Shown: positions 2,986 to 28,046 of the stretch, piece by piece
Numbering within the stretch: the stretch's first letter is position 1
Layout of the letters: the number at the start of each line of letters is the position of its first letter
NCBI GenBank assembly: GCA_002841785.1
Contig: PHAW01000003.1
Location: forward strand, 1 to 34,468
DNA from: Deltaproteobacteria bacterium HGW-Deltaproteobacteria-3
Lineage (GTDB): Bacteria; Desulfobacterota; Desulfobulbia; Desulfobulbales; Desulfurivibrionaceae
Reading direction: 5' to 3'
DNA: 34,468 nt
Position numbers and translations under genes: made by a program
The notes under the pieces: model-generated
Told to the model about the DNA's origin: nothing
The model's database searches: none
Seen by the model: only the letters and a program-made list of their open reading frames with translations

Positions 2986-3846
2986 ATGGCAATTGATATT
3001 CTCGCGGCATTGCAAACAGACCCCCCAGAACTCGACTTTATTTGGCCCGGGTTCCTGGCCGGAACAGTCGGCGCGCTTGTGGCTCCAGGGGCGACAGGCA
3101 AAAGCTATTGGACATTGGAGGCTGCCATATCCATCGCCTGCAGTGTTGCCGGCGGAGATCTGGTGGGGCTCGCCCCCACCAAGACGGGCCGAGTCGTGTA
3201 TCTAGCAGGAGAAGATCCCCCCTCCGCATTGATTCGGCGAATTCACGCCATCGGGCAACACCTACCTCCTGAATCAAGGGTGGCTGTTTCTCAAAATTTA
3301 ACCCTTGAACCAGTAATGGGGAAACGGCTCAACATAATGGACTCGAAATGCCTCGACCAGCTAATCGCATTGGGCACCGGCGCACGATTAATCGTGTTGG
3401 ACACATTAAGCCGCATTCATCTGCTCGACGAAAACAGTAATGGCGACATGGCCCAGTTGGTCTCGACACTGGAGTATGTGGCCGACTCGACCGATTCGGC
3501 GGTTCTCTTCCTACACCACGTCAACAAAACAAGCGGGAAGGAAGGCCATACCTTGCAACAAGCAGCACGGGGCGCTTCCGCCTTAATCGACAACGTCCGT
3601 TGGTGTGGCTTCATGACAAGGATGAACGAACAAGAAGCTGAACACCTCAGCAATTCCAGCCAGGGATACCAGCCGATTGGAAATGATAGAAAGAGTGCCT
3701 TTGTGCGATTTGGCGCGTGCAAGCAAAACTATGCCGATCTTCAACCGGATCGCTGGTATGAGCGCAAAAAGGGTGGCGTATTGCTTCCTGTGAAGTTAAC
3801 GAATATGAAACCCCTCAACAAGGTGAAGCGCCGTGAAGAAGCATGA
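2986..3846 (+). CDS. repA: IncQ-type RepA replicative helicase (RecA-fold ATPase)
   Basis: A 286-aa hexameric-helicase-type ATPase resembling RSF1010 RepA over its full length, including the opening INIL-like segment, AGTVGALV and the end GGVL-P. Walker A is PGATGKS (residues 34-40), GED follows at ~75-77, Walker B is LIVLD (135-139), and FLHHVNK (176-182) and RGASALIDNVRW complete the pattern. In IncQ plasmids RepA unwinds oriV DNA together with RepC and the primase RepB. The gene overlaps repC by 14 bases. Its presence inside an integrated element is unusual and suggests that the excised circle can replicate autonomously. Identification is firm; activity is inferred. Confidence 0.93.
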   Translation: MAIDILAALQTDPPELDFIWPGFLAGTVGALVAPGATGKSYWTLEAAISIACSVAGGDLVGLAPTKTGRVVYLAGEDPPSALIRRIHAIGQHLPPESRVAVSQNLTLEPVMGKRLNIMDSKCLDQLIALGTGARLIVLDTLSRIHLLDENSNGDMAQLVSTLEYVADSTDSAVLFLHHVNKTSGKEGHTLQQAARGASALIDNVRWCGFMTRMNEQEAEHLSNSSQGYQPIGNDRKSAFVRFGACKQNYADLQPDRWYERKKGGVLLPVKLTNMKPLNKVKRREEA

Positions 3847-4690
3847 TCTCACTCACGCGCGGCACGACCCGGCGCATTGCCTTGCCCCCGGCCTCTTCCT
3901 TTCACTGAAGCGCGGCGACCGGAAAAAACTCAAACTCGATGTGGTCTATCAACTTTCAGAAGATGAAACCATTGAGTTTTCCGGCCCCGAGCCTCTTGGG
4001 GTTGATGACATGCGAATACTGCAAGGACTTGTCGCCATGGCGGGACCGGTGGGCATCGTTTTGTCTGATGATCCAAAAACGGAAACCGGCAAGCAGTTGC
4101 GGTTGTTTTTGGAACCCCGGTGGGAATCGGTAAGCGAAAACGCACTGGTTGTCAAAGGATCGCTTCGGAATCTCGCAAAAGAAATAGGCTATGCGGACAT
4201 AGACGGTGGAAAAACATTCCGCGATATCCGGGCCAGCATCGAGCGGCTCTGGAAGGTGTCGATAATTGCCCGCCAAGGGGCCAAGAGAAGAGGCTACAGG
4301 CTGCTCTCGGAATATGCCTCTGATGAAACGGAAGGCAAACTATTCGTGGCCCTGAACCCAAGGTTAACGCAAGCCATCATGGGAGAACGCCAACATTCAC
4401 GCATCGACATGCAAGAAGTTCGAGCACTCAAAACAGACCCAGCCCGCCTTATACACCAACGCCTCTCTGCGTGGGTTGACCGAGGGAAAAAACGGCGAGC
4501 CACCATAGAAACCCTCATGGCGTATGCGTGGCCAAATACTTGCGGACCAAGCGGGACGCGAGACAGGAAGGCCAGAATCCGAAAGACTCTGCAAGAGATA
4601 GAAACCGTCGGCTGGACCATAAATGAGTATGCCGCTGGAAAATACGAGATCACCCGGCCCCGGACTAACACCGACACATCCCCGGACTAA
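3833..4690 (+). CDS. repC: IncQ-type RepC replication initiator (iteron-binding)
   Basis: A 285-aa protein resembling RSF1010 RepC from end to end: LTHARHDPAHCLAPGLF, then EFSGPEPLG, RILQGLVAMAGP, QLRLFLEP, IERLWKVSIIA, RLLSEYASDE, ALNP and AAGKYEITRP. RepC binds the oriV iterons and opens the origin. The GTG start at 3833 has AAGGTGAAG upstream and lies inside the repA end, so translation is coupled. The last residues are encoded by the first two iterons, so the origin begins inside the gene. The usual family length is near 283, so this is full length. Confidence 0.94.
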   Translation: MKKHDLTHARHDPAHCLAPGLFLSLKRGDRKKLKLDVVYQLSEDETIEFSGPEPLGVDDMRILQGLVAMAGPVGIVLSDDPKTETGKQLRLFLEPRWESVSENALVVKGSLRNLAKEIGYADIDGGKTFRDIRASIERLWKVSIIARQGAKRRGYRLLSEYASDETEGKLFVALNPRLTQAIMGERQHSRIDMQEVRALKTDPARLIHQRLSAWVDRGKKRRATIETLMAYAWPNTCGPSGTRDRKARIRKTLQEIETVGWTINEYAAGKYEITRPRTNTDTSPD

Positions 4691-4723
4691 CGGCGACAAC
4701 TCCCCGGACCAACAGCGACACCC
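4658..4723 (+). repeat. Three tandem 22-bp iterons (oriV)
   Basis: Three contiguous direct repeats occupy 4658-4679, 4680-4701 and 4702-4723. All start CCCCGGACTAAC or CCCCGGACCAAC, followed by a variable pair, CGACA and a variable tail. The 22-bp period and the position next to repC match the RepC-binding iterons of IncQ origins. The first copy and half of the second lie inside the repC coding end. Confidence 0.9.
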
Positions 4724-4950
4724 GAGAACCTGGAACTTCGCAACAGATAAGGCCGCAGGGCAATCTCATGAGTCCCGTCCAGATTATCCAGGATAATCCA
4801 CATGCGCGGTGCAACCCCGCGCCTTGAGGCGGGGAAGCTGACCTTGCAACTCAACTCTTTCTTTTCCTATTACCCAAAAGAAAAGGGCGATAGGGAAAAA
4901 GAATGGTGGGACCGAACGACGCACCAAATTTTAAGCACGGGCATGCCAGC
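4724..4950. other. Probable oriV flank with palindrome
   Basis: Downstream of the iterons no convincing gene is seen. A near-perfect palindrome, GATTATCC-A-GGATAATC, occupies 4782-4798, and the adjacent TAATCCACA differs from a DnaA box by one base. A GC-rich segment (4802-4835) and an A/T and purine-rich stretch (4856-4910) follow. This layout recalls the iteron, GC-rich, AT-rich order of IncQ origins, but the strand-initiation sites cannot be named from sequence alone. Confidence 0.5.
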
Positions 4951-5055
4951 CTACCCCTTGTGGCCACAAACCGCGTTGCGGTGTTGTGACCCCGGCGGGG
5001 GCTGGCGAGGGACAAGCCCCTTCGAACCCCTTTTCGCAACCAGCATGAGCGCATG
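4951..5055. other. Candidate oriT upstream of the mob genes
   Basis: Immediately before mobC lie several inverted repeats: a perfect 12-bp palindrome TTGTGGCCACAA (4958-4969), an imperfect hairpin CACAAACCGC/GCGGTGTTGTG (4966-4988) and GGGGCT/AGCCCC (4998-5003 with 5015-5020) around GGCGAGGG. MobP-type origins of transfer usually have such repeats beside the nick site, next to the relaxase genes. The nick site itself cannot be assigned. Confidence 0.45.
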
Positions 5056-5059
5056 AGAG

Positions 5060-5437
5060 ATGCAACGAGAGCAGCGCACGGCAATCATCAAAATCCGACT
5101 AACTGGCGCTGAGCAAGCGGCGTGGCAGGCCAAGGCTGAAGCCGCTGGGTTGTCTGTATCGGAATTGATACGTCGTGCTGTAGCCAGGGTCAAAACATGG
5201 ACTGCAGCCAATGCCGAGGTCGAACGACAACGGAACCGGGAATTAGCCAGAATCGGCAACAACCTCAACCAGATTGCACGGTGGGCCAACACCCACAAGA
5301 CCGCAGCGGATGCCATAGAGGTGATTTCTCATCTCCGTTCCATCGAGCAATTACTGGATTTTTCTTATGCCATTCGTCTCGCCCATTCTGACACCGGGAT
5401 AAGCGACCGCCGGGATGAGGTCGGGGATGCACATTAA
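5060..5437 (+). CDS. mobC: MobC-like relaxosome accessory protein (ribbon-helix-helix)
   Basis: A 125-aa protein with the MobC layout: an N-terminal ribbon-helix-helix (IIKIRLTGAEQAAWQAKA, then GLSVSELIRRAV) and a helical C-terminal part with the family signature RIGNNLNQIARW. MobC proteins bind oriT and help the relaxase melt and nick it. The gene lies between the candidate oriT and the relaxase, and its 3' end overlaps the relaxase start. The ATG at 5060 has only a weak GAG-rich Shine-Dalgarno. The arrangement (mobC then relaxase, same strand) is that of ColE1-type loci, not the divergent one of RSF1010. Confidence 0.88.
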   Translation: MQREQRTAIIKIRLTGAEQAAWQAKAEAAGLSVSELIRRAVARVKTWTAANAEVERQRNRELARIGNNLNQIARWANTHKTAADAIEVISHLRSIEQLLDFSYAIRLAHSDTGISDRRDEVGDAH

Positions 5438-7895
5438 ATTTACCGCCGGCCGCGGGCAAGGCAAAGGTTCCGGCCGAGGGGTGGCTAAGTATCTCACTGG
5501 CGCCAAGGATTGGAAGGGCCGCACACGTCCAGCCATAGAGGTCTTGCGGGGCGATCCCTTCCTGGTGGCTTCCGTCGCGGACTCGCTGGACTTCAAATAC
5601 AAATACACTTCCGGCGTCATCACCTTCGCCCCGGAAGACGCGCCCAGCCACGAAGAGATCAATGAGGTGCTCGACGAATTTGAGCGCACCGCCTGGTCTG
5701 GGCTCGACCCCGATCAGTATATCTGGTCTGCAGTGCTCCATCTGGAGGAGGGTGGCGGCTGCCATATTCATATCTTTACTCCGCGAGTGGATTTGCGGAC
5801 CGGAAAATCGCTCAATATCGCTCCTCCCGGACGTAAAGGCCCAGAGGGATTCAAACCGAACCCTCTGTTCGACAGCCTGCGGGACTATTTTAACTATCGC
5901 GAGGGGTGGGCTCGGCCCGATGATCCTGCCCGTTCGCGGCTGCTCCAGCCGGGGCATCGCAAATTCCTGAATATCTCCAGACTCGCGGCAGAGCAAAATC
6001 CGCGACAGATGATCACCGACTATCTGGTTCATTGCATAGATCTCGGTGAAGTAACTGATCGCGCTGGGATCGTGACTGCGCTCAAGGCGGCCGGCTTCGA
6101 GATCCCCCGGCAGGGCAAGGGCTATCTCACCGTGCATGACTTGACCAGTGGGCAAAGATGGCGATTAAAAGGAGCCATATATGAAGAACATTTCGACGTT
6201 GGACAGCTTGCAGAAACACCTCCTGCAAAAGCAGAAGGAGAAACGCGAGCAGATCGAGTCCCTGACCCGGCGCGAGCTGGAGCAGCTTGGGGCGAACTTA
6301 CAAGACGCCGTGAATCACGCGCTGCATACCATCGAAAGCGATATGCAGAAGCGCATAGGGCGGATGAACCAATCCCTGCAAAAAAGCCTGGACCAGACCG
6401 GGAGACAAATTGGGACTCTGCAAACCTCCCTACGGAAGATATGGCTCAAGCCAGCCCTGATCGGCCTGAGCCTCTTTCTCGGCATCTCATCCGGGAGCTG
6501 GGGCCTGATGCAGTTTCTGGCGGCCCGCATCCAGAACCAAGTCGAGACGCTATCCCAACTCCGGCTCCAGATCGGGCAGGAGCAACAGGCTCTTCAACTG
6601 CTTCGGAACGAATCCTGGGGGGTGACCTTGCGCCAGGACAAACAGGGGAAATTCGTGGTGCTGCCGGTGGGCATTCAACCAAAAGCCTTCTGGAGCGTGG
6701 AAGGAAGACCTGCCTTGATGCTTTCCAACGAGTGAGGGCAACCTATGACCGAATTAGAGCAACAGTTGACCACCGCATTGACCAGGCTATCACGGCAATA
6801 CTCGCTGGAACAACAACAGCAGGCCGAACTTATCACAGCCTTGTCGCGGCAGGTGGAGCAGCTCACCAAGCAAGTCTCCACCTTGGCGCACTCCTACAGG
6901 CGGCTGACCGAACTCTGGAAAGAGGAATGGGAGAGCTGATCATGTACCGCGATAACGAACTGGAGCAATTCAAAGGCAAGATCAACTTGGTGGAGTTCGC
7001 CCAGAGTCTCGGCTATCAGGTGGACCGCAGGGAATCGTCACGGAATTCGAAGGTGATGCGCCATGATAATGGCGATAAAATCGTCGTGGCCACCGGTCAA
7101 AATGGCCATGGTATCTACTTCTCGGTCCGGGATGACCGTGACAACGGGTCGATCATCGACTTCGTCCAGAAGCGAACAGGGGCAAGCCTTGGCCAAACCC
7201 GCAAAGCCCTGCGACCCTGGATCGATGGAGCCGAGGTGTCACCGCAACAACAAAGGCATCCGGAACCGAAACCTGTTCCGACAAGCAGGGATCGCCAGCA
7301 AGTGATTCTTGCTTACGCCAAAACTGAGCCGGTGCAGCATCACGCCTATCTTGCCTCACGCGGCATCGAAGACTCCACCTTGGCCGATCCCCGTTTTGTC
7401 GGCATGGTCCGTCAGGACACTCGGGGTAACGCAATCTTCCCTCACCATGACAGCGAGGGCTTAGCAGGATACGAACTGAAAAACAACGGCTTCACCGGCT
7501 TTGCCCGAGGGGGCACAAAAGCTATCTGGCACTCCAATAACCTTGCCATCGCCAAACGTGTGGTAATCGTAGAAAGTGCCATTGACGGACTTTCCCATGC
7601 GCAGCTCCATAAAAATCCCGATTCGGCCTATGTGAGCATTGGCGGACAAATGAGCGAGCATCAACAGACATTATTGCGCAGAGTATTTGAACGTGCGACA
7701 AACCGGGAAGCCGAGATAGTCATCGCGACCGACAATGATCCTGGCGGTGACAGCCTTGCCGGGGAAATCCAAAAGCTTATTCCTGCTCATGGGCAATTTT
7801 TGCGATCCGTACCAGCAAAAAAAGACTGGAATGCAGAACTGCAACACAAACAATGTTCTCGGGAAAAAACCGCGTTACCTTATCCTCATTCCTAA
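5427..7895 (+). CDS. mobA: MOBP (MbeA-like) relaxase fused to a DUF3991/TOPRIM domain
   Basis: An 822-aa fusion. Residues 1 to ~200 form a relaxase like ColE1 MbeA: Tyr22 in VAKYLTG is the likely nucleophile, YTSGVITFA follows, and His105, His113 and His115 (HLEEGGGCHIH) form a three-His metal site where MbeA itself has HEN. Residues ~250-505 are a Pro/Ala/Arg-rich linker overlapping two nested mob genes. Residues ~506-822 carry a zinc-finger-like/DUF3991 segment (YLASRGIEDSTLADPRF) and a TOPRIM domain with Glu716 (VVIVESAIDG) and Asp769/Asp771 (ATDNDPGGD), as in primases. The start at 5427 has GAGG seven bases ahead; ATG 5415 is an alternative. The protein should nick oriT and may prime replication, like MobA/RepB of IncQ but with an unrelated primase fold. 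Confidence 0.9.
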   Translation: MHIKFTAGRGQGKGSGRGVAKYLTGAKDWKGRTRPAIEVLRGDPFLVASVADSLDFKYKYTSGVITFAPEDAPSHEEINEVLDEFERTAWSGLDPDQYIWSAVLHLEEGGGCHIHIFTPRVDLRTGKSLNIAPPGRKGPEGFKPNPLFDSLRDYFNYREGWARPDDPARSRLLQPGHRKFLNISRLAAEQNPRQMITDYLVHCIDLGEVTDRAGIVTALKAAGFEIPRQGKGYLTVHDLTSGQRWRLKGAIYEEHFDVGQLAETPPAKAEGETRADRVPDPARAGAAWGELTRRRESRAAYHRKRYAEAHRADEPIPAKKPGPDRETNWDSANLPTEDMAQASPDRPEPLSRHLIRELGPDAVSGGPHPEPSRDAIPTPAPDRAGATGSSTASERILGGDLAPGQTGEIRGAAGGHSTKSLLERGRKTCLDAFQRVRATYDRIRATVDHRIDQAITAILAGTTTAGRTYHSLVAAGGAAHQASLHLGALLQAADRTLERGMGELIMYRDNELEQFKGKINLVEFAQSLGYQVDRRESSRNSKVMRHDNGDKIVVATGQNGHGIYFSVRDDRDNGSIIDFVQKRTGASLGQTRKALRPWIDGAEVSPQQQRHPEPKPVPTSRDRQQVILAYAKTEPVQHHAYLASRGIEDSTLADPRFVGMVRQDTRGNAIFPHHDSEGLAGYELKNNGFTGFARGGTKAIWHSNNLAIAKRVVIVESAIDGLSHAQLHKNPDSAYVSIGGQMSEHQQTLLRRVFERATNREAEIVIATDNDPGGDSLAGEIQKLIPAHGQFLRSVPAKKDWNAELQHKQCSREKTALPYPHS
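6181..6735 (+). CDS. mobB: MobB (MbeB)-like protein nested in the relaxase gene
   Basis: A 184-aa protein read in a different frame wholly inside the relaxase gene. AAAGGAG precedes the ATG at good spacing, which supports real expression. The N-terminal half is a long amphipathic, coiled-coil helix (LLQKQKEKREQIESLTRREL onward). A membrane segment follows at ~100-120 (ALIGLSLFLGISSGSWGL), then a second coiled coil. ColE1-type loci nest mbeB in mbeA in the same way; MobB proteins tether the relaxosome to the membrane or stabilise the relaxase. Similarity is by architecture and position more than by residue identity. Confidence 0.8.
   Translation: MKNISTLDSLQKHLLQKQKEKREQIESLTRRELEQLGANLQDAVNHALHTIESDMQKRIGRMNQSLQKSLDQTGRQIGTLQTSLRKIWLKPALIGLSLFLGISSGSWGLMQFLAARIQNQVETLSQLRLQIGQEQQALQLLRNESWGVTLRQDKQGKFVVLPVGIQPKAFWSVEGRPALMLSNE
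6745..6939 (+). CDS. mobD: MobD (MbeD)-like protein nested in the relaxase gene
   Basis: A 64-aa, Gln- and Leu-rich coiled-coil protein (MTELEQQLTTAL, RQVEQLTKQVSTL) in the same alternative frame as the MobB-like gene and starting 9 bases after it. GAGGG precedes the ATG. Length, opening MTELE and position inside the relaxase gene match ColE1 MbeD, which has been linked to entry exclusion and mobilisation. Its stop codon is two bases before an in-frame ATG (6942) of the relaxase frame, which could allow coupled internal initiation there. Confidence 0.78.
   Translation: MTELEQQLTTALTRLSRQYSLEQQQQAELITALSRQVEQLTKQVSTLAHSYRRLTELWKEEWES
6942..7895 (+). CDS. Possible separately translated TOPRIM primase (internal start in mobA)
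   Basis: In the relaxase frame an ATG at 6942 follows GGGAGAG at suitable spacing, two bases after the mobD stop. Translation here would give a 317-aa protein consisting of only the DUF3991/TOPRIM part. RSF1010 makes its RepB' primase by exactly such an internal start in mobA. The domain boundary coincides with this codon. Expression from this start is an inference. Confidence 0.5.
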   Translation: MYRDNELEQFKGKINLVEFAQSLGYQVDRRESSRNSKVMRHDNGDKIVVATGQNGHGIYFSVRDDRDNGSIIDFVQKRTGASLGQTRKALRPWIDGAEVSPQQQRHPEPKPVPTSRDRQQVILAYAKTEPVQHHAYLASRGIEDSTLADPRFVGMVRQDTRGNAIFPHHDSEGLAGYELKNNGFTGFARGGTKAIWHSNNLAIAKRVVIVESAIDGLSHAQLHKNPDSAYVSIGGQMSEHQQTLLRRVFERATNREAEIVIATDNDPGGDSLAGEIQKLIPAHGQFLRSVPAKKDWNAELQHKQCSREKTALPYPHS

Positions 7896-8391
7896 GCAAT
7901 CCAAAGAAAATAGCCCTGTTCCGGAGAGATTGACCCAGAGGAATACTTTGCGTGATGGTTTTAGCTACGGTTATCGGCGCGCGCTAAATTTACGAGTGTG
8001 CGGGAGAAGATTCTTGTTTCCGATTTGCTAACTCGAGTGTTCAGTTTTCAGGCAATCGTATCCAGCTCCTTTTGAGTGAATTGACTCAAGTCGATCTCCT
8101 TGGGCAGGTCCTGCCGCAAGGGGACCAATTTTAAAAAGGTCACGGAAGAAGCTGTTGCGGAGGCTGTCAAAAAACTGAATAACCGACCACGAAAGTGCCT
8201 CGAATACCAGACACCGCATGGAGTATTCTGACTGGCGGCTCGTGGTGCACTTTCAATTTGAATTCACCAAAGAGCCGCTTGGGATTTGAATTGTCGGACT
8301 GCGGAAGGGAGCACTATCTGTGAAAAAAATCGGCTGACATTTCCAGAGTTCAAAAATTTCATCTTTGTCCACATGATATTTCAACGCGCAC
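7896..8391. other. Gene-free stretch with an IS30 remnant
   Basis: Between the relaxase stop and the cargo gene the only recognisable content is the 3' end of an IS30-type transposase (8112-8231) and its adjoining non-coding end (8232-8269). Bases 7896-8110 and 8270-8391 show no gene or repeat that can be named. Confidence 0.6.
8112..8269 (+). pseudogene. IS30-family transposase remnant, C-terminal end
   Basis: Reading 8118-8231 gives KGTNFKKVTEEAV, then LNNRPRKCLEYQTP and a stop, the characteristic C-terminus of IS30-family transposases. The frame is lost upstream, so only about 38 codons survive. The bases after the stop (8232-8253) recur at 22062-22083 and look like the IS 3' end. The element is dead and marks an old insertion at the backbone/cargo border. 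Confidence 0.85.
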
Positions 8392-8764: not shown

Positions 8765-10870
8765 TCATTTGTCCTTGGACTGGGAAGCCTCCGGATGCTC
8801 GATCATCCGTTGCAGCATTTCCATGGTTTCGGTTTGCCGAGATTTTTGCCAATGGCTATCCTGACGTGGGGCGTTCTGGATCAAGGAATAAATCTTTTCG
8901 GCGTCCGCGCTTCCGTGTTGTCGTTTGGCTTCGGCATACTCAAAAATGTTCTTCCCCCGATAGGGATGGTCATCAATCGTGGCACCATACTCAAGCAGGA
9001 GTTGGACCTGGACAAGATTCGCATCCTGGACCGAGCTCATCAGGGCCGTGTTTCCCTGGGGTGCGATGTAATCCGGCGACACCCCTGCGGCCAATAACAC
9101 GCGCAAGGTCGGAGTGTCATTGGTGTATGCTGCAACCCAAACCTGTTCGGCTACTTCCACCGTCGCATATTTTTCCTTGGGGATCGCCGCGATCAAGAGA
9201 GCGACCGCCTCGCTTTGTTTTTCTTGTACCGTCAGGGCCAGTGGTGTGTTGCTGGTTGGATACTTGTTGGCGCGCTTGATAGGATCAAGCCCTTGGCTGA
9301 TGAGATAGCGTGTGCTTTCCAAGAAGCCGCTACGGGCGGCGTAGGCTAAAGCGGTCCGACCATTGATGTCGGTCGCCTGCAGGTGCTTGTAATCGCGCTG
9401 GCCGATGGCCTTCAATACCTTGGGCATGCCGACGGCTGCGGCGGCTATGGCGAGGGGGTAGCCGACTAGCGGGGTGCGACCGTCCCGTTCCATCACACGA
9501 TGGTATGGCAGCAAGCGGTCCAGCGAATTCGGACTAGCTTCGGCGTCCAGATCGGCACCGGCTTCGATCAGGCGTACAGCCTCATCCTGCTGCTCGGCCA
9601 GAATGGCGCGAATCAGTGGGGAAATCTTTTCATCTTTGCGAATAAAGGGGTTCTCCGGCATCCGGCCATTGACAGCCAACGTGGCGAGGGCTATTTCCAG
9701 CGCTTTGCCAGCAGGCACGGAAACGTCAGGGAGAATTCGGTCTTGGGTTTGCGACTTGCCTGGGAACTTAAGTAATTCATGGGTCAGCAATATCGCCCGG
9801 CTCTTGCTGAATTTGATGATGGTCTTGTGACTCGCCAATCCGGCAGTCGGCTCACCATACACTTTGGCATGTCCGGTGGCCTGCAACACCCCGGCGATAA
9901 TCTCCGCGCCACCGCGCGTCTTGCTCGAAACCAAGACTAGGATGGGAATATCCAACACCCTGGCAGGCAACGTCGTCGATTTGAGCCGCACCTCATGGCC
10001 TTGCCTCTGCGGGTTGATTGCCTCATAGATCAGTGCCCCCTGAGGTAAGAAGCGGCCAAGTATGGCATACAACATATCAAGGCTGCCGCCGCCGGAATCG
10101 CGCAAATCAAGCAGCAAGGATTTAACCGGCGCTTCGTTCTGCAAGGCTTTCAGCCCTTCATCGAAATGTAAGTCACGGCTTATAAACAGGTCGGGGAGAT
10201 AGATTCGGGCAATGCCCATCCTCTTATCCATCCAGTGTGCGGAAAAGTTCTCCGAAGGCGACACATTGCCTTTTGCCTGAACCGACAGCGAGATCGGATC
10301 AAAACCAAACTCGGCTGCTGGGTCCTGCAGGGCTTGGAGGAACGCCGCTTCGAATTCGTCTGCAACACCGCGAAAGCCGGTGAATAATTTCTTGTCGGGT
10401 TCATGCGCCCGCACGAGCGCACAGGCCTCGGCCAGGGTGTGATGGACTTGGCTGACCAGATCGGTGCGGAGGCGCGGGTCATCCAGGCGAGAATCCGTGG
10501 GGACCTGTCCCCTCCATCTTGCTTTCCAGCGCGGCGTATCGCCAAGTTTGCCAGGCAGAGTTTCGAGGGTAAGGTGTTTGTCCAAGCTGGGTAGGAGGTA
10601 AGCGAGCGTCTTTTGCATTATTTTTTCGGTGACAGGGAAGCCATGTTCCTTCACCAGATAATCCAATAAGGCCCCGATCTCCGGCATCCAGTTGATGGTT
10701 CCGCAGGCGCTGAGACTGGTCGGCAGCTCTCCCAACCATAGGGCCTCAGAATCAGCAGCCGGGGACTCGTCCGCCAACGCCGCCGGGCACGGTAGGCCCA
10801 GCATCAAGACGGTGACCACAACTATGGCTAGAAGAAACAGGGGCCGTTGATTCACAGAATGCCTTCTCAT
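8765..10870 (-). CDS. Exported S41 protease-like protein with C-terminal ankyrin repeats
   Basis: A 701-aa protein. Residues 1-33 form a signal peptide (RRHSVNQR, a hydrophobic run, cleavage near ALADE). Residues ~215-395 have the S41 (tail-specific/C-terminal processing protease) core: LLLDLRDSGGGSLD, then KTRGGAEIIAGVLQ and VYGEPTAG. In Prc-type enzymes Ser, Asp and Lys lie at offsets 0, +11 and +25; here those positions are Gly320, Ala331 and Leu345, so catalysis of that kind is not expected. Residues ~415-690 form ankyrin repeats (NGRTALAYAARSG, GNTALMSSVQDANL), suggesting protein binding in the periplasm. The ATG lies inside a RAYT end repeat and overlaps the RAYT stop, so the native start may have been replaced. 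A downstream start is possible. Confidence 0.85.
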   Translation of the reverse strand: MRRHSVNQRPLFLLAIVVVTVLMLGLPCPAALADESPAADSEALWLGELPTSLSACGTINWMPEIGALLDYLVKEHGFPVTEKIMQKTLAYLLPSLDKHLTLETLPGKLGDTPRWKARWRGQVPTDSRLDDPRLRTDLVSQVHHTLAEACALVRAHEPDKKLFTGFRGVADEFEAAFLQALQDPAAEFGFDPISLSVQAKGNVSPSENFSAHWMDKRMGIARIYLPDLFISRDLHFDEGLKALQNEAPVKSLLLDLRDSGGGSLDMLYAILGRFLPQGALIYEAINPQRQGHEVRLKSTTLPARVLDIPILVLVSSKTRGGAEIIAGVLQATGHAKVYGEPTAGLASHKTIIKFSKSRAILLTHELLKFPGKSQTQDRILPDVSVPAGKALEIALATLAVNGRMPENPFIRKDEKISPLIRAILAEQQDEAVRLIEAGADLDAEASPNSLDRLLPYHRVMERDGRTPLVGYPLAIAAAAVGMPKVLKAIGQRDYKHLQATDINGRTALAYAARSGFLESTRYLISQGLDPIKRANKYPTSNTPLALTVQEKQSEAVALLIAAIPKEKYATVEVAEQVWVAAYTNDTPTLRVLLAAGVSPDYIAPQGNTALMSSVQDANLVQVQLLLEYGATIDDHPYRGKNIFEYAEAKRQHGSADAEKIYSLIQNAPRQDSHWQKSRQTETMEMLQRMIEHPEASQSKDK

Positions 10871-11912
10871 CTGATCCCGTCCTCTTCCCGAGCGAGAGCC
10901 CGGTTAATGCTCGATGTGTTCACGCCAAGATGGCGCGCGATCTCTGCACCGGACAGGCCAAGCTCATGCCGACTTCGACGGGCAATGGTCATTCTGGCCT
11001 CGCACACGATGCGGCGTCTGTTCCCCAGTTGCAGTTCTTCGGAACTGATCTTACTCCGCTCGCATTCTTCCCGGATAATATCGGTTATCGTGCGGCCGTC
11101 TCGCCGGTGTTTCAGTTGCCGTGCCAAGTTTCCCTCGGCTTCATTCAGGATTTCCCGAATAAAATCCCCGTTACCCAGTATCCGCTGATCGTATTCCTCT
11201 TGCAGGACCTTTCCTCGCATGGCAAGCACCCGGGACCAGCCGCCCTGGCTCCGGATCAGCCCGCCGCCGGTCAGTACCGGATCTCGTCCCTGCCCAGTCC
11301 CCTCCTGCACGAATCGTCGGTAGGCCTCCCGCGCTTTTCGCGTTGTCTTGCCGAATTGAAGCAGTACCTGCTCGGTGTCCATCCAAGGGCATTCTCTCTT
11401 GTTCATCAGGGCACTGTGACCACACCAAGGATAGCAGTCCAGATCTTCCAGGGTATTTACCATTCCGGCCCGCATGGGGTTGAGATGGATGTAGCGAACC
11501 AGGGCCAGAAGGTACTGGTCCTCATCGCAGAGGATGGATTTGTAGCGGTTTTCGAAGAGATGGCCGGTGCGGCGGTGACGACAATTAAAATAGAGGGCGT
11601 ACCCGGTGAGAAGTTTGCGCATGGCAGTGGAAACGCCCGTCTCACCGCTCTTGAAAATGAGGTGGACGTGGTTGTCCATCAGGACCCAGGCGTAAACAAC
11701 GCACTTCCCCTCCGTGACAATTCGGCCGAGTCTTTCGAGGAATCGGATTTTATCCTCGTCATCTCGAAAAATGTTCGTCTTATCAATGCCCCGAACCATG
11801 ATGTGATGCAAGGCGCCGGGGATATCCAATCGTGCTTGGCGTGGCATGATGCGATCCTACGGAAGGCTCTTGGTATTGTCAACTGAAAGCACTCTGTGAA
11901 TCAACGTCCCCC
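10840..11912 (-). mobile_element. REP-associated tyrosine transposase element with inverted ends
   Basis: The transposase gene is flanked by an inverted repeat of about 23 bp: 10840-10862 reads GGGGCCGTTGATTCACAGA and so on, and 11889-11911 is its inverse with two or three differences. Solo copies of the 3' end occur at 12870-12901 and 18656-18697. RAYT proteins mobilise or maintain short palindromic REP sequences. The inverted pair and scattered solo ends fit such an element. Confidence 0.75.
10867..11847 (-). CDS. rayT: REP-associated tyrosine transposase (Y1 HUH family, RAYT)
   Basis: A 326-aa protein. The N-terminal ~150 residues are a Y1/IS200-like HUH domain: opening MPRQARLDIPGALHHIMVRG, HUH motif DNHVHLIF, and the tyrosine region LVRYIHLNPMRAG typical of RAYTs. 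The C-terminal part has a helix-turn-helix (HELGLSGAEIARHLGVNTSSINRAL), seen in RAYTs with a DnaA-like tail. It would nick and join single-stranded REP DNA. The gene seems intact, on the minus strand, and its stop overlaps the ATG of the ankyrin gene by four bases. Confidence 0.92.
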   Translation of the reverse strand: MPRQARLDIPGALHHIMVRGIDKTNIFRDDEDKIRFLERLGRIVTEGKCVVYAWVLMDNHVHLIFKSGETGVSTAMRKLLTGYALYFNCRHRRTGHLFENRYKSILCDEDQYLLALVRYIHLNPMRAGMVNTLEDLDCYPWCGHSALMNKRECPWMDTEQVLLQFGKTTRKAREAYRRFVQEGTGQGRDPVLTGGGLIRSQGGWSRVLAMRGKVLQEEYDQRILGNGDFIREILNEAEGNLARQLKHRRDGRTITDIIREECERSKISSEELQLGNRRRIVCEARMTIARRSRHELGLSGAEIARHLGVNTSSINRALAREEDGIR

Positions 11913-11920
11913 AACTCTTC

Positions 11921-12547
11921 TTAGCGCGTAACTATTTCAGCAAATCCGTCCCACCTATTGACATCCCAATCGTTCTCAAAAAGGTAGCGAATGATCACAT
12001 TACCTTTCCTGTCGATTAGATAGGTGTCGGGTTGCCCACCCATCCTCTCCTCATATCCTGATGAGGCTGAGGCTCCGAAAGCCTTAGCGGTGGCGTAGTC
12101 GCCCATCACCACAGGATAGTTAACCCCTTTTTTCTTGAGGGCTTCAGAGACCTTAGCCATATACCCCAGAGAAACATCGGTCAACGGGCCAGTATCATTC
12201 GCTTTATCCATAAGGATACCAATAACAGTGAAGCCCTTGGGGCCGTACTTTTTTTGTAAGGCAATAAAGATAGGAGGAAGCATTACAGGATTGAATCCTG
12301 TAGCGGGTCCCAAAAAGAAATGCACCACCATACCCTGCCCTTTGTACTTGTCAGAGTCAAGAATGGCACCACCATCTACGGAGGGGAGCTTGAAGCTTGG
12401 CATCTTCTTTGGCGCGGCATGGGCCTGTGCTGCGAACAGGCAAAATAAAACAGACAGCAGTCCGGTGAACAATATTTTGGAAATAATTTCTCTTAAGGTA
12501 AACCCCCGGCTTTGCCGGTGGGCTCTGACTTGCATTATGGTTTTCAT
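11921..12547 (-). CDS. Exported thioredoxin-fold (TlpA/redoxin-like) protein lacking CxxC
   Basis: A 208-aa protein with an N-terminal signal peptide (hydrophobic ILFTGLLSVLFCLFAAQAHA, residues ~25-44). The redoxin fold is recognisable: FKLPSVDGG, MVVHFFLGP, PPIFIALQKKYGPKGFTVIGI, and the cis-proline region GGQPDTYLIDRKGNVI. Where TlpA proteins have the WCxxC active site this one reads GPATGFN, with TGFN at 83-86, so no redox cysteines exist. It may act as a binding or chaperone domain. The ATG at 12547 is preceded by a run of nine C and has no clear ribosome site; ATG 12535 is an alternative. The start is uncertain. Confidence 0.8.
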   Translation of the reverse strand: MKTIMQVRAHRQSRGFTLREIISKILFTGLLSVLFCLFAAQAHAAPKKMPSFKLPSVDGGAILDSDKYKGQGMVVHFFLGPATGFNPVMLPPIFIALQKKYGPKGFTVIGILMDKANDTGPLTDVSLGYMAKVSEALKKKGVNYPVVMGDYATAKAFGASASSGYEERMGGQPDTYLIDRKGNVIIRYLFENDWDVNRWDGFAEIVTR

Positions 12548-12660
12548 GGGGGGGGGAAGCCTTCTATGGTAGTGGTTGATAATTACTATGGCCCGCTCAA
12601 TGTCAATGAGCACCATAATTTTGGATAGATCCTGAATCCGTGACGCCCGAAGACGTTTGT

Positions 12661-12707
12661 GAGGCTTTGTGGCCCCCGAAAAAGTTTTGCGGAGCCACAC
12701 AGGCCTC
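12661..12707. repeat. Imperfect palindrome upstream of the thioredoxin-like gene
   Basis: Arms 12661-12678 and 12690-12707 pair imperfectly around a short loop. On the minus strand it precedes the thioredoxin-like gene by about 110 bases. It could be a REP-like hairpin, a leader structure or a terminator of upstream transcription; no T run follows. Confidence 0.4.
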
Positions 12708-12869
12708 TTGATGGTCAAAAAATCGCCCTTATGGGCCAGCCGGCATTGTCATGCCCTCCTTTTTGCCAAAAATCGCTGCATCCAGACGTGCTGCTCCTGT
12801 TGAAACATGCGGACGACATGCTCCCGCCTCAGGGAGGAGCAAGCTTATTATAGAGAAACAGGGTACGTG

Positions 12870-12901
12870 TGATTCACAGAATGCCTTCTCATCTGATCCC
12901 G
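12870..12901 (-). repeat. Solo RAYT 3'-end repeat
   Basis: Thirty-two bases match the RAYT element end at 10848-10879 almost perfectly, in the same orientation. Here the repeat abuts an IS3 orfB fragment, with no transposase gene attached. Confidence 0.75.
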
Positions 12902-12903
12902 AC

Positions 12904-13000
12904 TCGCCTCTTGTCTGGTTTTGAAATGACAATGGCGGACAAGCTCATTTTTCAGTGTACCCCAGAAACTTTCCATGGGGGCGTTGTCGTAGCAGCTTAA
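12904..13000 (-). pseudogene. IS3-family transposase orfB fragment
   Basis: Minus-strand reading gives SCYDNAPMESFWGTLKNEL then HCHFKTRQEA, the conserved region with the last catalytic Glu in IS3-group orfB. Only about 32 codons remain. The fragment begins inside the 3' end of the S41-PDZ gene in another frame and ends at the RAYT solo repeat. Confidence 0.85.
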
Positions 13001-14186
13001 GCTCAGCCAACGCGCTAGCCAACACCTTGTCATCTTGCTCAGTTGCAGCCACGTCTTCAACACGAATGTCCGGGGTGATACCTTCCGGTGCCGAAGAGTG
13101 CCCCTTGGGGGTTCGCCAGCGAGCGGTAGTGAGCTTTACTGCCGACATGTCGTTCAGAAGCAGGATCGTTTGGATTGAGTCCTTGCCGAAGGTGGGCGTA
13201 CCGATAATGAGTGCCCGCTGGTAATCCTGCAAGGCACCCGCCACGATTTCTGATCCTGCCGCAGACTGGTCATTGACCAGCACGACCAAGGGAAGGTGCC
13301 TCACCTCGTCGGATAGTTTCCCTCGCTCGCGTTTATCTCCCCTGGAGAGAATATCATTGTTGCCTTTGTATTCCTGGGTGGCGTCCTTCGTTTGGCCTTC
13401 GGTGGAGAGCAGGAGGGTATTGTTGGGCAGGAAGGCCCCGGCGAGCGCAATTGCCTGGTCGAGCAGCCCGCCTGGATTGTCACGTAGATCGAGCGCCAAA
13501 CCGTTCAGTGTCCCCTGGTTCTGCCTGTATAGGGATTGCACGGCCTCGACGAATTTTTCCAGGGTATTGCGGGGGAAGGCCCGAACTTTGATATAGCCGT
13601 AGCCCGGCTCCAAAAGTCTGGAGTTGACGGTCTGATAGGCGACGATCTTGCGAGTCAGAGTAAATTCCAGTGGCGAATTCACGCCCTCGCGCTTGATGGT
13701 AAGACGAATTTTCGTATCAGACTTGCCTCGCAAGTGTTTAGCAACCTCGGAGAGCGACAATTTGCCGATGGGCTTCCCATCAATCTTGGTGATGACATCA
13801 CCCCGGTGGATGCCCGCCTCGATGGCTGGCGAATCGTCGAGGGCGGACACGACCTGGTGGCGATCATTCTTTATCCTAAGCTCAAGACCCACCCCCGCCG
13901 AATTTTCCGAATCGCTGAACATTTCACTGAATGCCTCGCCTTCCAGATATTCTGAATAGGGATCCAGTTTGGCCATACCCGCCAGGCATGCATTGAACAG
14001 CCGCTTATCATCGACAGGATCAACATAGGCGTCCTTAATCCGCCTCGAGAGCTCTCGATAAACTTTCCATTCTTCTGGTGTGAGGGGAGATATATCTTGG
14101 TGTGGCTCTTCTGCCAATACTGGTGAAATAGAGATGGGCAGCACCAAGACGAGCATTACCGCGATAACCAACAGACGTAGTTTCAT
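12945..14186 (-). CDS. Exported S41 C-terminal processing protease-like protein with PDZ domain
   Basis: A 413-aa CtpA-type protein: signal peptide (1-25, ending PVLAEE), helical N-domain with DPYSEYL, PDZ domain ~95-170 (GVGLELRIKND, GIHRGDVITKIDGKPI), then the S41 core (LALDLRDNPGGLLDQAI, SAAGSEIVAGALQDYQRALIIGTPTFGK). Asp321 and Lys335 match the catalytic Asp and Lys, but the residue 25 before Lys, normally the nucleophilic Ser, is Ala310; Ser308 and Ser312 flank it. The last ~16 residues come from IS3 DNA read out of frame, so the native C-terminus is lost. The start at 14186 has AGGAGAAGG upstream. It probably acted in envelope protein processing. Confidence 0.85.
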   Translation of the reverse strand: MKLRLLVIAVMLVLVLPISISPVLAEEPHQDISPLTPEEWKVYRELSRRIKDAYVDPVDDKRLFNACLAGMAKLDPYSEYLEGEAFSEMFSDSENSAGVGLELRIKNDRHQVVSALDDSPAIEAGIHRGDVITKIDGKPIGKLSLSEVAKHLRGKSDTKIRLTIKREGVNSPLEFTLTRKIVAYQTVNSRLLEPGYGYIKVRAFPRNTLEKFVEAVQSLYRQNQGTLNGLALDLRDNPGGLLDQAIALAGAFLPNNTLLLSTEGQTKDATQEYKGNNDILSRGDKRERGKLSDEVRHLPLVVLVNDQSAAGSEIVAGALQDYQRALIIGTPTFGKDSIQTILLLNDMSAVKLTTARWRTPKGHSSAPEGITPDIRVEDVAATEQDDKVLASALAELKLLRQRPHGKFLGYTEK

Positions 14187-14224
14187 GCCCTTCTCCTGTG
14201 TGACCTTTTTAGGAAATGAATGTA

Positions 14225-14569
14225 TTAGTTTGTGCACCACGCTTTATTCAGTCCTGGAGTAATCTCATTTAAAGCAGATCTTACAAAATCATCAATCATG
14301 TTATCAACACAAGATGTGCTTGCACCACAAGACTGCATACACTGAAATGTGTAATTTGATTCCCATGACCCATCAAGCATTTTTGAGATTTGTGCTTTTT
14401 TGGCGGAGGTAATGTTCTTGCCAGTGACTTCTCTGCATATCGTCTGCATTTTTTCCTGAACTCTGGCTAAAGCTACGCCCTTAAAATCTCCACATGTCCT
14501 GGCAGAAGCAGTTACAGGAATAGCGCATACAAAAACAAATATAAAGAACATGAATTTTATTAATTTCAT
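14225..14569 (-). CDS. Small secreted cysteine-containing protein
   Basis: A 114-aa protein not recognised as a named family. It has a clear signal peptide (KLIKFMFFIFVFVCAIPVTASA, about residues 1-22) and six cysteines after it, in a mostly helical mature part (TCGDFKG, MQTIC, QCMQSCGASTSCVDNM, AWCTN). The even number of cysteines suggests disulphides outside the cytoplasm. GAGGAGAG precedes the ATG. It lies 38 bases upstream of the S41-PDZ gene on the same strand and may share its transcript. Confidence 0.75.
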   Translation of the reverse strand: MKLIKFMFFIFVFVCAIPVTASARTCGDFKGVALARVQEKMQTICREVTGKNITSAKKAQISKMLDGSWESNYTFQCMQSCGASTSCVDNMIDDFVRSALNEITPGLNKAWCTN

Positions 14570-21930: not shown

Positions 21931-22061
21931 TGTTCAGTTTTCCCGTACCAACTCCGCCCAGAAAAGCATATTCCGTCTAGCAGGATATTGAAAAAGAGTT
22001 TTCACTGACGGCGCTCTTGCCGTCATGTTCTGATACCGAGCAATACGAATTAAATACCTGG

Positions 22062-22098
22062 CTGGCGGCTCGTGGTGCACTTGCAATTTCATTCACCT
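22062..22098 (+). repeat. Second copy of the IS30-type 3' end
   Basis: The first ~22 bases equal 8232-8253, the non-coding end just after the IS30 transposase remnant, in the same orientation; the rest is similar. No transposase sequence remains here. The two copies bracket the 8.2-22.1 kb cargo. Confidence 0.7.
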
Positions 22099-22231: not shown

Positions 22232-22269
22232 CTTTTCAATCAAGCTCCGTCACGGGCTTGATTGAAAAG
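22232..22269 (-). terminator. Hairpin overlapping the exoprotein stop codon
   Basis: A perfect 14-bp inverted repeat (22232-22245 and 22256-22269, arm CTTTTCAATCAAGC) with a ten-base loop; the stop codon of the exoprotein gene lies within it. No long T run follows, so it may act as an mRNA stabiliser or a weak terminator. Confidence 0.5.
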
Positions 22270-25200
22270 ATTATTCAATTTTTCTACTTTCCACTGTCTA
22301 AAAATCCCATCTTGACGCCATTTTTTATCTGCCAGCCTATCTGTCATAAGATTAAGTGTTTTTTGGTCTTTGGCATTAAGTTCTTTCTGGTTATTATTAT
22401 AGCTATTGTATTGAGCTATAATCCCACCTGCAACGGGGATAAACTCTCCTCCAAATAGCATGATATCCTTTGCAAGATCATTTGATATCTGGCCTTGTGC
22501 GGCGGATGCCGCAGTGAGAATTACAGTCTGAGTAATAAGCTTCGCTGCAAAATTTGCCACATTCAAAGAATTTCCAGTGCGCAAATCTGCCTCTAGAACA
22601 CCATAGCTATTCAACATCCCCCAAAGTGTTCCATCACTCTTTATTTGCTTTATGTCTTTCGAGCTAAGTGCCAAACCTTTATTAAGTGATTGGAATATCA
22701 ACTTCATACCTGGCGATGTTAATGCAGTGAGTACCTCTGTATTTACGCGTACAATTTTTTGGAGGTTCGTAGGTCTACCGACCAATTTATCCCCTATTTT
22801 GGCGCTCGTTTTGATAAAAGCAGAAATTTTATTAAAAGCACCCTCTGTCCTCATCGCCGTCCTTAGTGCTGTGCCACCGGCCACTGTTGCAATATCCCCG
22901 GCAACTGACAGGGTATTTATAAACGCATCTGCTGCATAGTTAAGCTTTGCAGCTTTTTCATTATTTCCAAATTGTGATTGTATGGAACCTAATACCGGAG
23001 TCCATTTTTCATCAAGCATTTTCAGCTCGGCGTGAAATTTGTCATCAATCACTTTGTTGCTAAAACTATTATCAACTATCCCGATGTCATTAAGGTGGCC
23101 CATCAACGATTTAATCTGCTTATCGCTGAGTTTTTCTATTTCAAGCCCTTCTGGGGTTAACCATTTAGAGAATTCTGGAGACATTTCAAGCTCTCTGATT
23201 TTCTTCATTTGAAGAGAGGACAACTTGAAACCGGGGGCGGATGATGCCAAAGCAAAACTCCTTACCTCGACAGCCTCAAATGTCTTCACATCGCCTTCAT
23301 CAAACACAACTTTTTCCATCTGTTCGATTTTAAGTTCGTTGTCTATTGACTGATTGACCGTTATCTGCGCAGTGGTTGTGTCGCTACCGTTGCAGATGGA
23401 GGGGGCAAGAATACATGGATCCACCGAAACGAGGGAGCCGGTGGTAAACACCCTGATGTTGGCTGGGGTGGTGACGATTTGCCAGGCAAGATAGGGATAC
23501 GAATTGCCCTCATTGATACGCCAGGTGTTGGTGAAATCCCAACCAGCATAGCTTGCTCGCTGCTTCATTTGGGCGGTAGTGCGGCCTGTGCCGCTGCCGC
23601 TTGTCATCCAGCCTGAAGTTCCTGTATTCCAGTAGGAGCTGGTGGTATTACCCCCATCGTACTGTTCACTCACCAGTCCTCCCCCAGGCCATCCTCCTGT
23701 ATCACTGACAGCTCCAGTGCTATAGGAATTGCTAATGCTACTTCCGGGATCACTATGTCCGACTAACCCGCCAGCAATTCCACCGCTCACACTGCCAGTG
23801 CTGTAAGAATTGGCAATACTGCCACCAGACTTATTATGGCCTACCAGTCCACCGACACAATGGCTCATTGCATCGCCCGGGATGATAGTCGCCGTGCTTG
23901 TGCTGTATGATTTCATAATAGCGCCGGAGTTATCGCCCACTAAGCCGCCAATTCCGTATACGCCGCTCACGCCTCCCGTGGTGTATGCATTGGTGATACT
24001 GCCAGAATTGTAGCCCGCCAGCCCGCCGACAAAATAATATCCATCGATATCAACACCAACAAGACCTACATTGCGTATAGCCCCTGCTGTTTTTCCAAAT
24101 AAGCCGACATAATCTGTGCCTAGCCTATTAATTCGAAGGCTGGTAATAATATGATTCAACCCATCAAAAATACCACCGAACGCTCCGCCTGAAGTACCCA
24201 CCGGTATAAATCCAGCGCCTCCATTCCATCCGCTGGTGGTACTGGCGGCGATATCCTTGCCCAAGGCATAATGGCCAGACAAGTTGGTATTCATTGCCTG
24301 TAATTGACTTACACTGTTCACCAACATGAAGGCATCCATGGTGCTGCCGCCATTGCGTGTTACTTTCCCGCTATATGGATTGCTACTATTGTCCGACTTG
24401 TAGGAGGCGTGGTTATAAGTTCCAGACGCTGGATTGTAATATATGCCTACCGCTGCCCCGTTGTTCACCGTTATATGGCCGCTACCTCCAAACGCCACTG
24501 TACCAAAACCGGTGCCGGTGTTGTCCGCCCGTAGGAGGACACTGCCGCCACCAGCTGAATTGATGGACGCGTTAACAACGATATTGCGGTAGGCGTTGAG
24601 GGTCAACTTGCTCAAGCTGGTCCAGTATACGGTGTCGTTCACAAAGATGTCGCCGTTGCCGCTACCGGAGGTAATGGTCTGTAAAGTGATATTACTGGTG
24701 TTAAGATAATTACCCAGGTCCGCCCCTCTGATGTCGCCACCACTGGCGGCGATTTTATAATCTGTGGGATCAATAAGCCATTGACCCATGGCGCCATAAG
24801 GAGCGGCAGTGGTGATTTTAACCGCCGGGTCGATAGTCACATGGGCGCCCGAGGTTTCGATGAAACCACCGTCGCCGCCATTGGGCGCGGAGGCATCCAG
24901 GGTACCGCTCACCGCCACCTCGCCTCCCATGGCTTTCAAGATGATGGTTCCTTCCTGCTGATCCACGGTGGTGGCTTTGATATGACCGGTCATGTTAATA
25001 GCCTTGTCCACCACGTTCTTGGCCACCTCGGCGGTGAGCAGCACCCAGCCGCCATTGGCCTCGATGGTGCCGCTGTTTTCCACCGCCGCAGCGAGCGAGT
25101 TGCCCAAGGCGTCCTGAAGCTGGCTGGTGATGGTGCTGTCCGCCTCAAAGAGGATCAGATTGTCACCATAGAGGTCGATGGTGAAGCTATTGGCCGAGGC

Positions 25201-25785
25201 AAGGGCCACCTTGCCCAACCGGGCGGTGATCAGACCGGAGTTCTGCACCGAGGGCGCGACCAGGGCCACCAGGCCGCCTTCCTGCACGGTGATTTTGCCC
25301 TGGTTGATAATCTGGGCACCGGCCTTGCCGGGGATGGTGAAGTCGAGCTTCCCGGCCATGAAGTCATCGTTTTTAATGTCGTGGCTGGTGGCAATGAGTG
25401 CGGCCACATCCACCTGGGAGTCCTTACCAAAGAAGACGCCGTTGGGGTTCACCAGCACGATCCGGCCATTGGCAGTGAGCTGGCCAAGAATTTGGGAGAC
25501 ATCGGGGCCGGTGACCCGGTTGAGGGTAATGGAGTTGCTGGATGGCTGGACAAAGCGGGTTTTCTCGCCTGCGCCGATGCTGAAGCTGTTCCAGTTGATA
25601 ATGGCCTTATCCGTGCTCTGGGTGATGGTGACCTGGGCCGGGGCGGTCTGGGCAATGGTTGCCTGGCCAGCGACCACGGTGCCGCCATTGGGGTTGGCAA
25701 GAGCTTGGCCATAGGTGGCGGCAAGCGCGGCGGTGGCTACCAAAAGAGAAGCCGTCAGTTGGGTGCGGCTGTATCGCTTTTTCAT
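22240..25785 (-). CDS. TpsA exoprotein: filamentous haemagglutinin-type with GLUG repeats
   Basis: An 1181-aa secreted protein. Signal peptide (1-30, ending ALANPN); TPS recognition domain ~31-150 with NRVTGPDVSQILGQL and NPNGVFFGKDSQVDVAALIATS; a beta-helix region; GLUG-type repeats ~585-715 (GGLVGDNSGAI, GGLVGHNKSGGSIANSYSTG); then, after ~790, a Lys-rich, mostly helical C-terminal third with hydrophobic stretches and no recognised domain. TpsA proteins cross the outer membrane through their TpsB partner and act in adhesion or contact-dependent effects. GAGG precedes ATG 25785, one base after the tpsB stop. The unusual C-terminus may be an effector or anchor. Confidence 0.92.
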   Translation of the reverse strand: MKKRYSRTQLTASLLVATAALAATYGQALANPNGGTVVAGQATIAQTAPAQVTITQSTDKAIINWNSFSIGAGEKTRFVQPSSNSITLNRVTGPDVSQILGQLTANGRIVLVNPNGVFFGKDSQVDVAALIATSHDIKNDDFMAGKLDFTIPGKAGAQIINQGKITVQEGGLVALVAPSVQNSGLITARLGKVALASANSFTIDLYGDNLILFEADSTITSQLQDALGNSLAAAVENSGTIEANGGWVLLTAEVAKNVVDKAINMTGHIKATTVDQQEGTIILKAMGGEVAVSGTLDASAPNGGDGGFIETSGAHVTIDPAVKITTAAPYGAMGQWLIDPTDYKIAASGGDIRGADLGNYLNTSNITLQTITSGSGNGDIFVNDTVYWTSLSKLTLNAYRNIVVNASINSAGGGSVLLRADNTGTGFGTVAFGGSGHITVNNGAAVGIYYNPASGTYNHASYKSDNSSNPYSGKVTRNGGSTMDAFMLVNSVSQLQAMNTNLSGHYALGKDIAASTTSGWNGGAGFIPVGTSGGAFGGIFDGLNHIITSLRINRLGTDYVGLFGKTAGAIRNVGLVGVDIDGYYFVGGLAGYNSGSITNAYTTGGVSGVYGIGGLVGDNSGAIMKSYSTSTATIIPGDAMSHCVGGLVGHNKSGGSIANSYSTGSVSGGIAGGLVGHSDPGSSISNSYSTGAVSDTGGWPGGGLVSEQYDGGNTTSSYWNTGTSGWMTSGSGTGRTTAQMKQRASYAGWDFTNTWRINEGNSYPYLAWQIVTTPANIRVFTTGSLVSVDPCILAPSICNGSDTTTAQITVNQSIDNELKIEQMEKVVFDEGDVKTFEAVEVRSFALASSAPGFKLSSLQMKKIRELEMSPEFSKWLTPEGLEIEKLSDKQIKSLMGHLNDIGIVDNSFSNKVIDDKFHAELKMLDEKWTPVLGSIQSQFGNNEKAAKLNYAADAFINTLSVAGDIATVAGGTALRTAMRTEGAFNKISAFIKTSAKIGDKLVGRPTNLQKIVRVNTEVLTALTSPGMKLIFQSLNKGLALSSKDIKQIKSDGTLWGMLNSYGVLEADLRTGNSLNVANFAAKLITQTVILTAASAAQGQISNDLAKDIMLFGGEFIPVAGGIIAQYNSYNNNQKELNAKDQKTLNLMTDRLADKKWRQDGIFRQWKVEKLNNLFNQARDGA

Positions 25786-25786
25786 G

Positions 25787-28014: not shown

Positions 28015-28046
28015 CGTCAGACCGTCAGACCGTCAGACCGTCAGAC
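28015..28046 (+). repeat. Four tandem copies of an 8-bp unit
   Basis: CGTCAGAC is repeated four times without interruption (28015-28046). It is a simple variable-number repeat candidate near the right island end; no spacer structure, so not CRISPR. Confidence 0.8.

Follow-up and report, generated by a model that had tools for sequence, protein, structure and literature searches.

A relaxase joined to a TOPRIM primase, with nested mobilisation genes, beside IncQ-type replication genes in an integrative element

Introduction

In the IncQ1 plasmid RSF1010, the relaxase is fused to a primase, RepB, which is also made separately, and the fusion is accompanied by a nested mobB, by RepA and RepC, and by iterons. 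IncQ plasmids are broad-host-range partly through having their own helicase, primase and initiator. Can the same design be assembled from other parts? A stretch of 34,468 nucleotides from Deltaproteobacteria bacterium HGW-Deltaproteobacteria-3 (GenBank assembly GCA_002841785.1, contig PHAW01000003.1, positions 1 to 34,468; hereafter the window, whose numbering is used throughout, with genes on the forward strand unless stated otherwise) raises this question, as it carries an 822-residue fusion of a relaxase and a primase (5427-7895) next to IncQ-type replication genes. We think it probable that an IncQ-type plasmid gave rise to an integrative, mobilisable element whose mobilisation and replication core is this locus, with the fusion in place of RSF1010 MobA-RepB.

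A MOBP relaxase and a TOPRIM primase in one open reading frame

A single open frame spans 5415-7895, and homologues align from the conserved start codon ATG at 5427. The first ~260 residues (5427-6200) form a MOBP relaxase domain, which matches the NCBIfam model of MbeA (NF047848) with an E-value of 6e-31 and 108 bits, under the curated cut-off of 500, and scores 21.8 against PF03432, slightly under the cut-off of 24.6. These matches indicate a relaxase related to ColE1 MbeA that falls outside the NF047848 family in the strict sense. Tyr22, His105 and His115 are invariant across 19 relatives, and His113 is replaced by Glu in cyanobacterial members. An original prediction, made from the letters of the window, had described a ColE1-type, MbeA-like relaxase with a three-His site; the homologues and the H105/H113/H115 triad agree with it, but this HHH metal site does not match the HEN site of the ColE1 relaxase. 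By alignment, the H-E-H of the cyanobacterial members is an intermediate between the two. A MobC/NikA-like relaxosome protein is encoded at 5060-5437 (PF21983, 2e-18; PF05713, 2e-13), and upstream of mobC lies a candidate origin of transfer (oriT; 4945-5030) with the blocks GCCAGCCTACCCC and GGGCTGGCGAGGG, its 11-mers being common to up to 13 relatives. A conserved IncQ-3 15-mer (PMC7557826) had no match in the window.

The last 317 residues of the fusion (6942-7895) pass the Pfam cut-offs for both DUF3991 (38.6 bits against 24.5) and Toprim_2 (51.6 against 22.1), and homologues agree, so that the predicted union of a relaxase and a TOPRIM primase in one open reading frame (ORF) stands. Numbered from 6942, the domain carries Glu211, Asp264, Asp266 and a DWN motif at 295-297. 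Of 15 aligned members, 13 retain both the TOPRIM acids and the DWN motif, and the other two may be misaligned; in a survey of mobile-element proteins, this motif denotes catalytically active DnaG-like primases (PMC5512222). Searching PDB by sequence with either domain returned nothing useful, and among viral contigs just two free primases matched. An AlphaFold model of the primase, built from 15 sequences (predicted local distance difference test, 93.4; predicted template modelling [TM] score, 0.87), gave nine PDB matches with E <= 0.001, every one of them a DnaG RNA-polymerase domain or the T7 gp4 primase (best E 1.2e-6). TM-scores over the target reached 0.62 (6n9u); those over the query were a modest 0.33-0.43, which would be expected of proteins having in common just the TOPRIM core and the region adjoining it on the N-terminal side. 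The predicted fold thus suggests that the C-terminal domain is a DnaG/T7-type primase, which would be capable of priming.

Nested mobilisation genes and a fixed junction

The linker between the two halves had also been said to encode mobB- and mobD-like genes in another frame, and both ORFs are found there in frame +1: mobB (6181-6735), MbeB-like, with one hydrophobic stretch and a Shine-Dalgarno (SD) sequence AAGGAG 6 nt upstream, and the MbeD-like mobD (6745-6939). PF04899 (MbeD_MobD) matches the window mobD over its cut-off (23.6 against 21.6) and all 10 of the mobD members tried. PF04837 (MbeB_N) matches three of nine mobB members (best 2e-5), with an E-value of 0.33 for the N-terminal region of the window mobB. 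With phmmer, we recovered 64 loci with a nested mobB and 41 with a nested mobD, the window included, and the frame relation to the relaxase is constant. When loci were compared with the window by BLOSUM score, conservation was stronger for the nested-frame protein than for the main-frame one in 98% of 63 cases for the mobB region and in 95% of 40 for the mobD region, an advantage that holds alike for alignments made in the nested frame and in the main frame. Nested mobB and mobD are thus conserved in their own frame among relatives.

The end of mobD is tied to the beginning of the primase. In the window, the stop codon TGA of mobD (6937-6939) is followed after 2 bases by an in-frame ATG at 6942, with GGAG 8 nt upstream. 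In each of the 11 fusions in which both mobD and the primase motif 'ELE(R/Q)FK' are detectable, the first codon of that motif begins exactly 26 nt downstream of the first base of the mobD stop. The junction thereby fits three coding signals, namely the end of mobD, the relaxase linker and the start of the primase, into ~30 bases, with a register that is fixed across phyla. Nested ORFs and an internal ATG could be unexpressed by-products of the coding sequence, and the length of the nested open frames is compatible with this: 399 of 2000 synonymous-codon shuffles (20%) gave frames equally long, and we dropped frame length as proof of nested genes. It is homology and conservation, not length, that decide the matter, and the nested-frame conservation, the MbeD match in 10/10 members and the mobD stop register in 11/11 fusions make the by-product explanation very improbable.

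The prediction that the mobD stop leads into an ATG exactly at the primase border applies to the window and to part of its relatives. At the border, the window, pPNAP08, a Citrobacter plasmid and the Campylobacterales (as a GTGA overlap) and Rhodocyclaceae loci have an in-frame start accompanied by an SD-like site; elsewhere the border has an ATG without an SD site (L010 and L011), TTGA (two loci) or, in eight cyanobacterial loci, no start codon. In most cyanobacterial relatives the internal start is absent or SD-less. Free-standing homologues of the primase on Thioflavicoccus, Desulfosarcina, Prosthecochloris and Acidisarcina plasmids begin ~0 to 17 codons from this residue, no more than 4 codons away in three of the four cases, and a complete enzyme would therefore be expected from ATG 6942. 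We infer that the nested and internal starts are translated and that a free primase would arise at ATG 6942 by termination-reinitiation after mobD. Non-fused relaxases stop 44-80 nt past the mobD stop in distinct tails, most of which end in '..GPSR'; these tails give no support to the idea that such relaxases are decayed fusions.

IncQ-type replication genes

Upstream of the mobilisation genes lie an IncQ-type RepA helicase (2986-3846; PF13481, 2.6e-33) and an IncQ RepC initiator (3833-4690; PF06504, 437 bits against a cut-off of 22.8). By phmmer, RepA matches RepA of the IncQ-3-type plasmid pK433-qnrS at 1e-124 and that of a second IncQ plasmid at 1e-64, and RepC is ~62% identical to RepC of IncQ plasmids. 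Three 22-bp iterons (4658-4723; Tandem Repeats Finder score 93), a probable oriV, straddle the end of repC, and the order repA-repC-iterons is common to the window, pK433-qnrS and pPNAP08. Downstream of the iterons, the hairpin-like CCCCGCGCCTTGAGGCGGGG at 4816-4838 is a possible single-strand initiation site.

The RSF1010-type primase, PF16793, had no match in the fusion, its own genome, pPNAP08, pK433-qnrS or the Citrobacter plasmid. An RSF1010-type plasmid used as a positive control scores 116 bits. For the primase function of the IncQ replicon, the fused TOPRIM domain is therefore the strongest candidate. Together, RepA, RepC, the iterons and the undetected RSF1010-type primase strengthen the analogy, drawn originally from the fusion, to an RSF1010 MobA/RepB made of different parts.

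Relatives and comparison with known systems

A lack of similar fusions in related elements would have told against the original prediction, but we found 18 further loci with the fusion: pPNAP08, the Citrobacter plasmid, plasmids and contigs of cyanobacteria (Chondrocystis, Rippkaea and others), and Rhodocyclaceae, Campylobacterales and other assemblies. Two of the 18 adjoin a TrfA-like initiator and one adjoins RepL, and the cyanobacterial fusions occur without IncQ genes. The design recurs in pPNAP08 of Polaromonas naphthalenivorans CJ2 (NC_008764, typed IncQ1/MOBP), which has mobC, IncQ RepA and RepC, three 22-bp iterons after repC, and a relaxase-DUF3991/TOPRIM fusion that is 39% identical to that of the window and has an ATG at the primase border; it differs in being a free 6.5-kb plasmid with no integrase or cargo, and its nested mobB and mobD were not detected by phmmer. 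The Citrobacter plasmid is a reduced form, with repA, a gene of no assigned identity and 21-bp iterons. That gene (681-1409 of L004), annotated 'ABC transporter ATPase' and lacking a Pfam match, occupies the repC slot between repA and the iterons, and its product is a candidate for an unrecognised iteron-binding initiator.

The window fusion varies the known IncQ theme of a joined relaxase and primase, both of which are drawn here from other protein families. RSF1010 shares its relaxase-primase fusion, nested mobB, RepA, RepC and iterons, but has a MobA_MobL-type relaxase (PF03389) and RepB_primase (PF16793), neither of which was found in the window fusion. ColE1 mbeABCD has an MbeA-like relaxase preceded by MobC, with nested mbeB and mbeD, and differs by the HEN site, the lack of a primase and another replicon. 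Free DUF3991/TOPRIM (Toprim_2) primases of conjugative elements, such as that of Thioflavicoccus pTHIMO01, are 47-49% identical over the whole primase and have a similar start, but are free-standing, with no fused relaxase. In Cardinium pcBtQ1 and Methylobacterium CBMB27-p1, the same primase family is joined to MobV and MobF relaxases, respectively; as these are other relaxase families on other replicons, such fusions are presumably independent of that in the window.

IncQ-3-type plasmids (for example, Aeromonas pK433-qnrS, NZ_OK017455) resemble the window in RepA, RepC (62% identical), three iterons, MobC and a MOBP relaxase with a nested ORF, and their C-terminal domain is distantly related to DUF3991/TOPRIM (hhalign 92.5%, E 5e-7). 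In contrast, their relaxase is missed by the profile of the window relaxase family, no mobD was detected, and the primase domain has diverged, lying under the Pfam cut-offs with an altered second acidic motif. The gene is named mobA-repB in the literature, where one or two polypeptides from the fusion were not distinguished (PMC7557826). In one IncQ-3-type 'MobA-RepB' (4701-7142 of L093), the C-terminal domain is TOPRIM-like, unlike that of RSF1010, and its second acidic motif appears altered (GENE). Since IncQ-3 carries a MOBP relaxase and a distant TOPRIM-like domain, RSF1010, IncQ-3 and the window group appear, on sequence comparison, to use different parts for one design.

A single origin of the fusion was tolerated by the primase tree (a single fused clade, approximately unbiased [AU] test, p=0.097) but rejected by the relaxase tree (AU p=3e-8). 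The latter test was run after removing contig-truncated rows; an earlier p of 4e-59 was discarded, as it had been inflated by a contig-truncated row, L067, that appeared unfused. Taken together and with the fixed junction register, the two trees suggest either that relaxase parts have been exchanged upstream of a conserved junction or that the fusion has been lost repeatedly; the data favour neither.

Integration site

The element occupies 27,812 bp in a tRNA-Pro gene. At its right end, tRNA-Pro(TGG) (28261-28338, reverse strand) contains attR (28261-28308), and at its left end attL (449-496), a copy of the 3' end of the tRNA, is identical to it over 48 of 48 bp. Beside attL is a tyrosine integrase (684-1904; PF00589, 4e-23; PF13356, 1e-21), whose ORF is open from 414 and whose likely start at 684 was chosen by eye. 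In three genomes of the same genus, the flanks are contiguous around a single copy of the repeat, that is, the site is empty. No type IV secretion system (T4SS) family was found among the scanned window ORFs. With integrase, attL and attR in a tRNA gene, an empty site and a relaxase, this is an integrative mobilisable element. Just inside both ends, at 634-671 and 28180-28217, lies a 38-nt imperfect direct repeat (84%) with two copies of TTTGTATCA; these repeats are likely integrase arm-binding sites.

An IncQ-like plasmid could also have been trapped in the chromosome and have lost its mobility. Such a decayed remnant would be integrated, as this element is, and among 17 members of the genus searched, this genome alone carries RepC; a transposase gene and a large cargo lie within the element as well. 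Nevertheless, int, repA, repC, mobC, the fusion, mobB and mobD are all open, attL and attR agree at all 48 bp, and the absence of the element from this site in sister genomes is in keeping with a recent arrival, which leaves decay a quite unlikely explanation.

Priming in replication, in conjugation or in both

If the locus is a mobilisation and replication core, the relaxase half would, with MobC, MobB and MobD, nick oriT and stay attached to the strand exported by a helper conjugation system, and the fused primase would lay primers on the strand entering the recipient. After excision, the free primase would act with the RepA helicase and the RepC initiator and prime at the replication origin. 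A broader proposition, for which we would put the balance slightly on the doubtful side, holds jointly that a DnaG/T7-type primase replaces RepB in IncQ-type replication, that the relaxase-primase design arose on two or more occasions, from unrelated relaxases and unrelated primases, and that mobD coupling sets the ratio of free to transfer-bound primase.

The primase might instead serve conjugation only, travelling along with the relaxase and priming the complementary strand in the recipient, with the IncQ replicon using host DnaG or being defunct and the internal start being incidental. Several free-standing homologues adjoin T4SS, conjugation or mobilisation genes. Primases of this family are also joined to MobV and MobF relaxases and, in cyanobacterial plasmids that lack IncQ rep genes, to MOBP relaxases, there for the most part with no internal start; the transfer of TOPRIM primases during conjugation is known (PMC5512222). 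However, wherever IncQ repA is present (the window, pPNAP08 and the Citrobacter plasmid), the border start with its SD-like site is present too, and these three have no RSF1010-type primase. A role in conjugation only is thus somewhat unlikely.

Several points weigh against a primase serving both replication and transfer in a mobile IncQ-type core. The element is integrated and known from one incomplete assembly (85% complete, the window being one contig), so autonomous replication may be lost. As most cyanobacterial fusions lack an internal start, a free primase is not required everywhere. Cysteines are absent from the N-terminal domain of the window primase, and none is conserved there across the family, hence no zinc ligands; there is therefore no normal zinc-binding primase domain, and template recognition must differ from that of DnaG. 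Finally, the Pfam signals of mobB and mobD are weak when the window is taken alone.

Should a structurally unrelated primase fill the RepB slot, and again be fused to a relaxase, the fusion itself is likely under selection; the comparison suggests that one and the same machine was put together from unrelated parts. In that case an old question, whether a relaxase-bound primase serves transfer, replication or both, becomes open to part swapping. The fusion is already in annotated records under uninformative names. In the open-access literature, we found no paper on this swap, on DUF3991 with a relaxase, or on IncQ with relaxase, primase and TOPRIM, a search by which priority is only partly judgeable; the two papers that bring up IncQ and TOPRIM together deal with other matters. 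As far as that literature goes, the apparent novelty lies in recognising the fusion as a stand-in for RepB, the primase of RSF1010 type, within a replicon of the IncQ kind, accompanied by nested genes of ColE1 type and by a junction of fixed register that may be coupled.

Cargo and repeats

The element carries as cargo a two-partner secretion (TPS) pair, a TPS-domain exoprotein (22240-25860) and a ShlB/FhaC-type transporter (25787-27496). A further region (8765-14240) contains two S41-family peptidase genes, one with ankyrin repeats, together with a redoxin and an IS200-like (Y1) transposase gene. Part of the cargo is flanked by a 32-nt repeat (8228-8259 and 22058-22089; 94% identical), which may mark its insertion, and 42-nt repeats occur at 10840, 12862 and 18656, at or between genes. 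Near the right end, four perfect copies of the 8-mer CGTCAGAC lie at 28015-28047.

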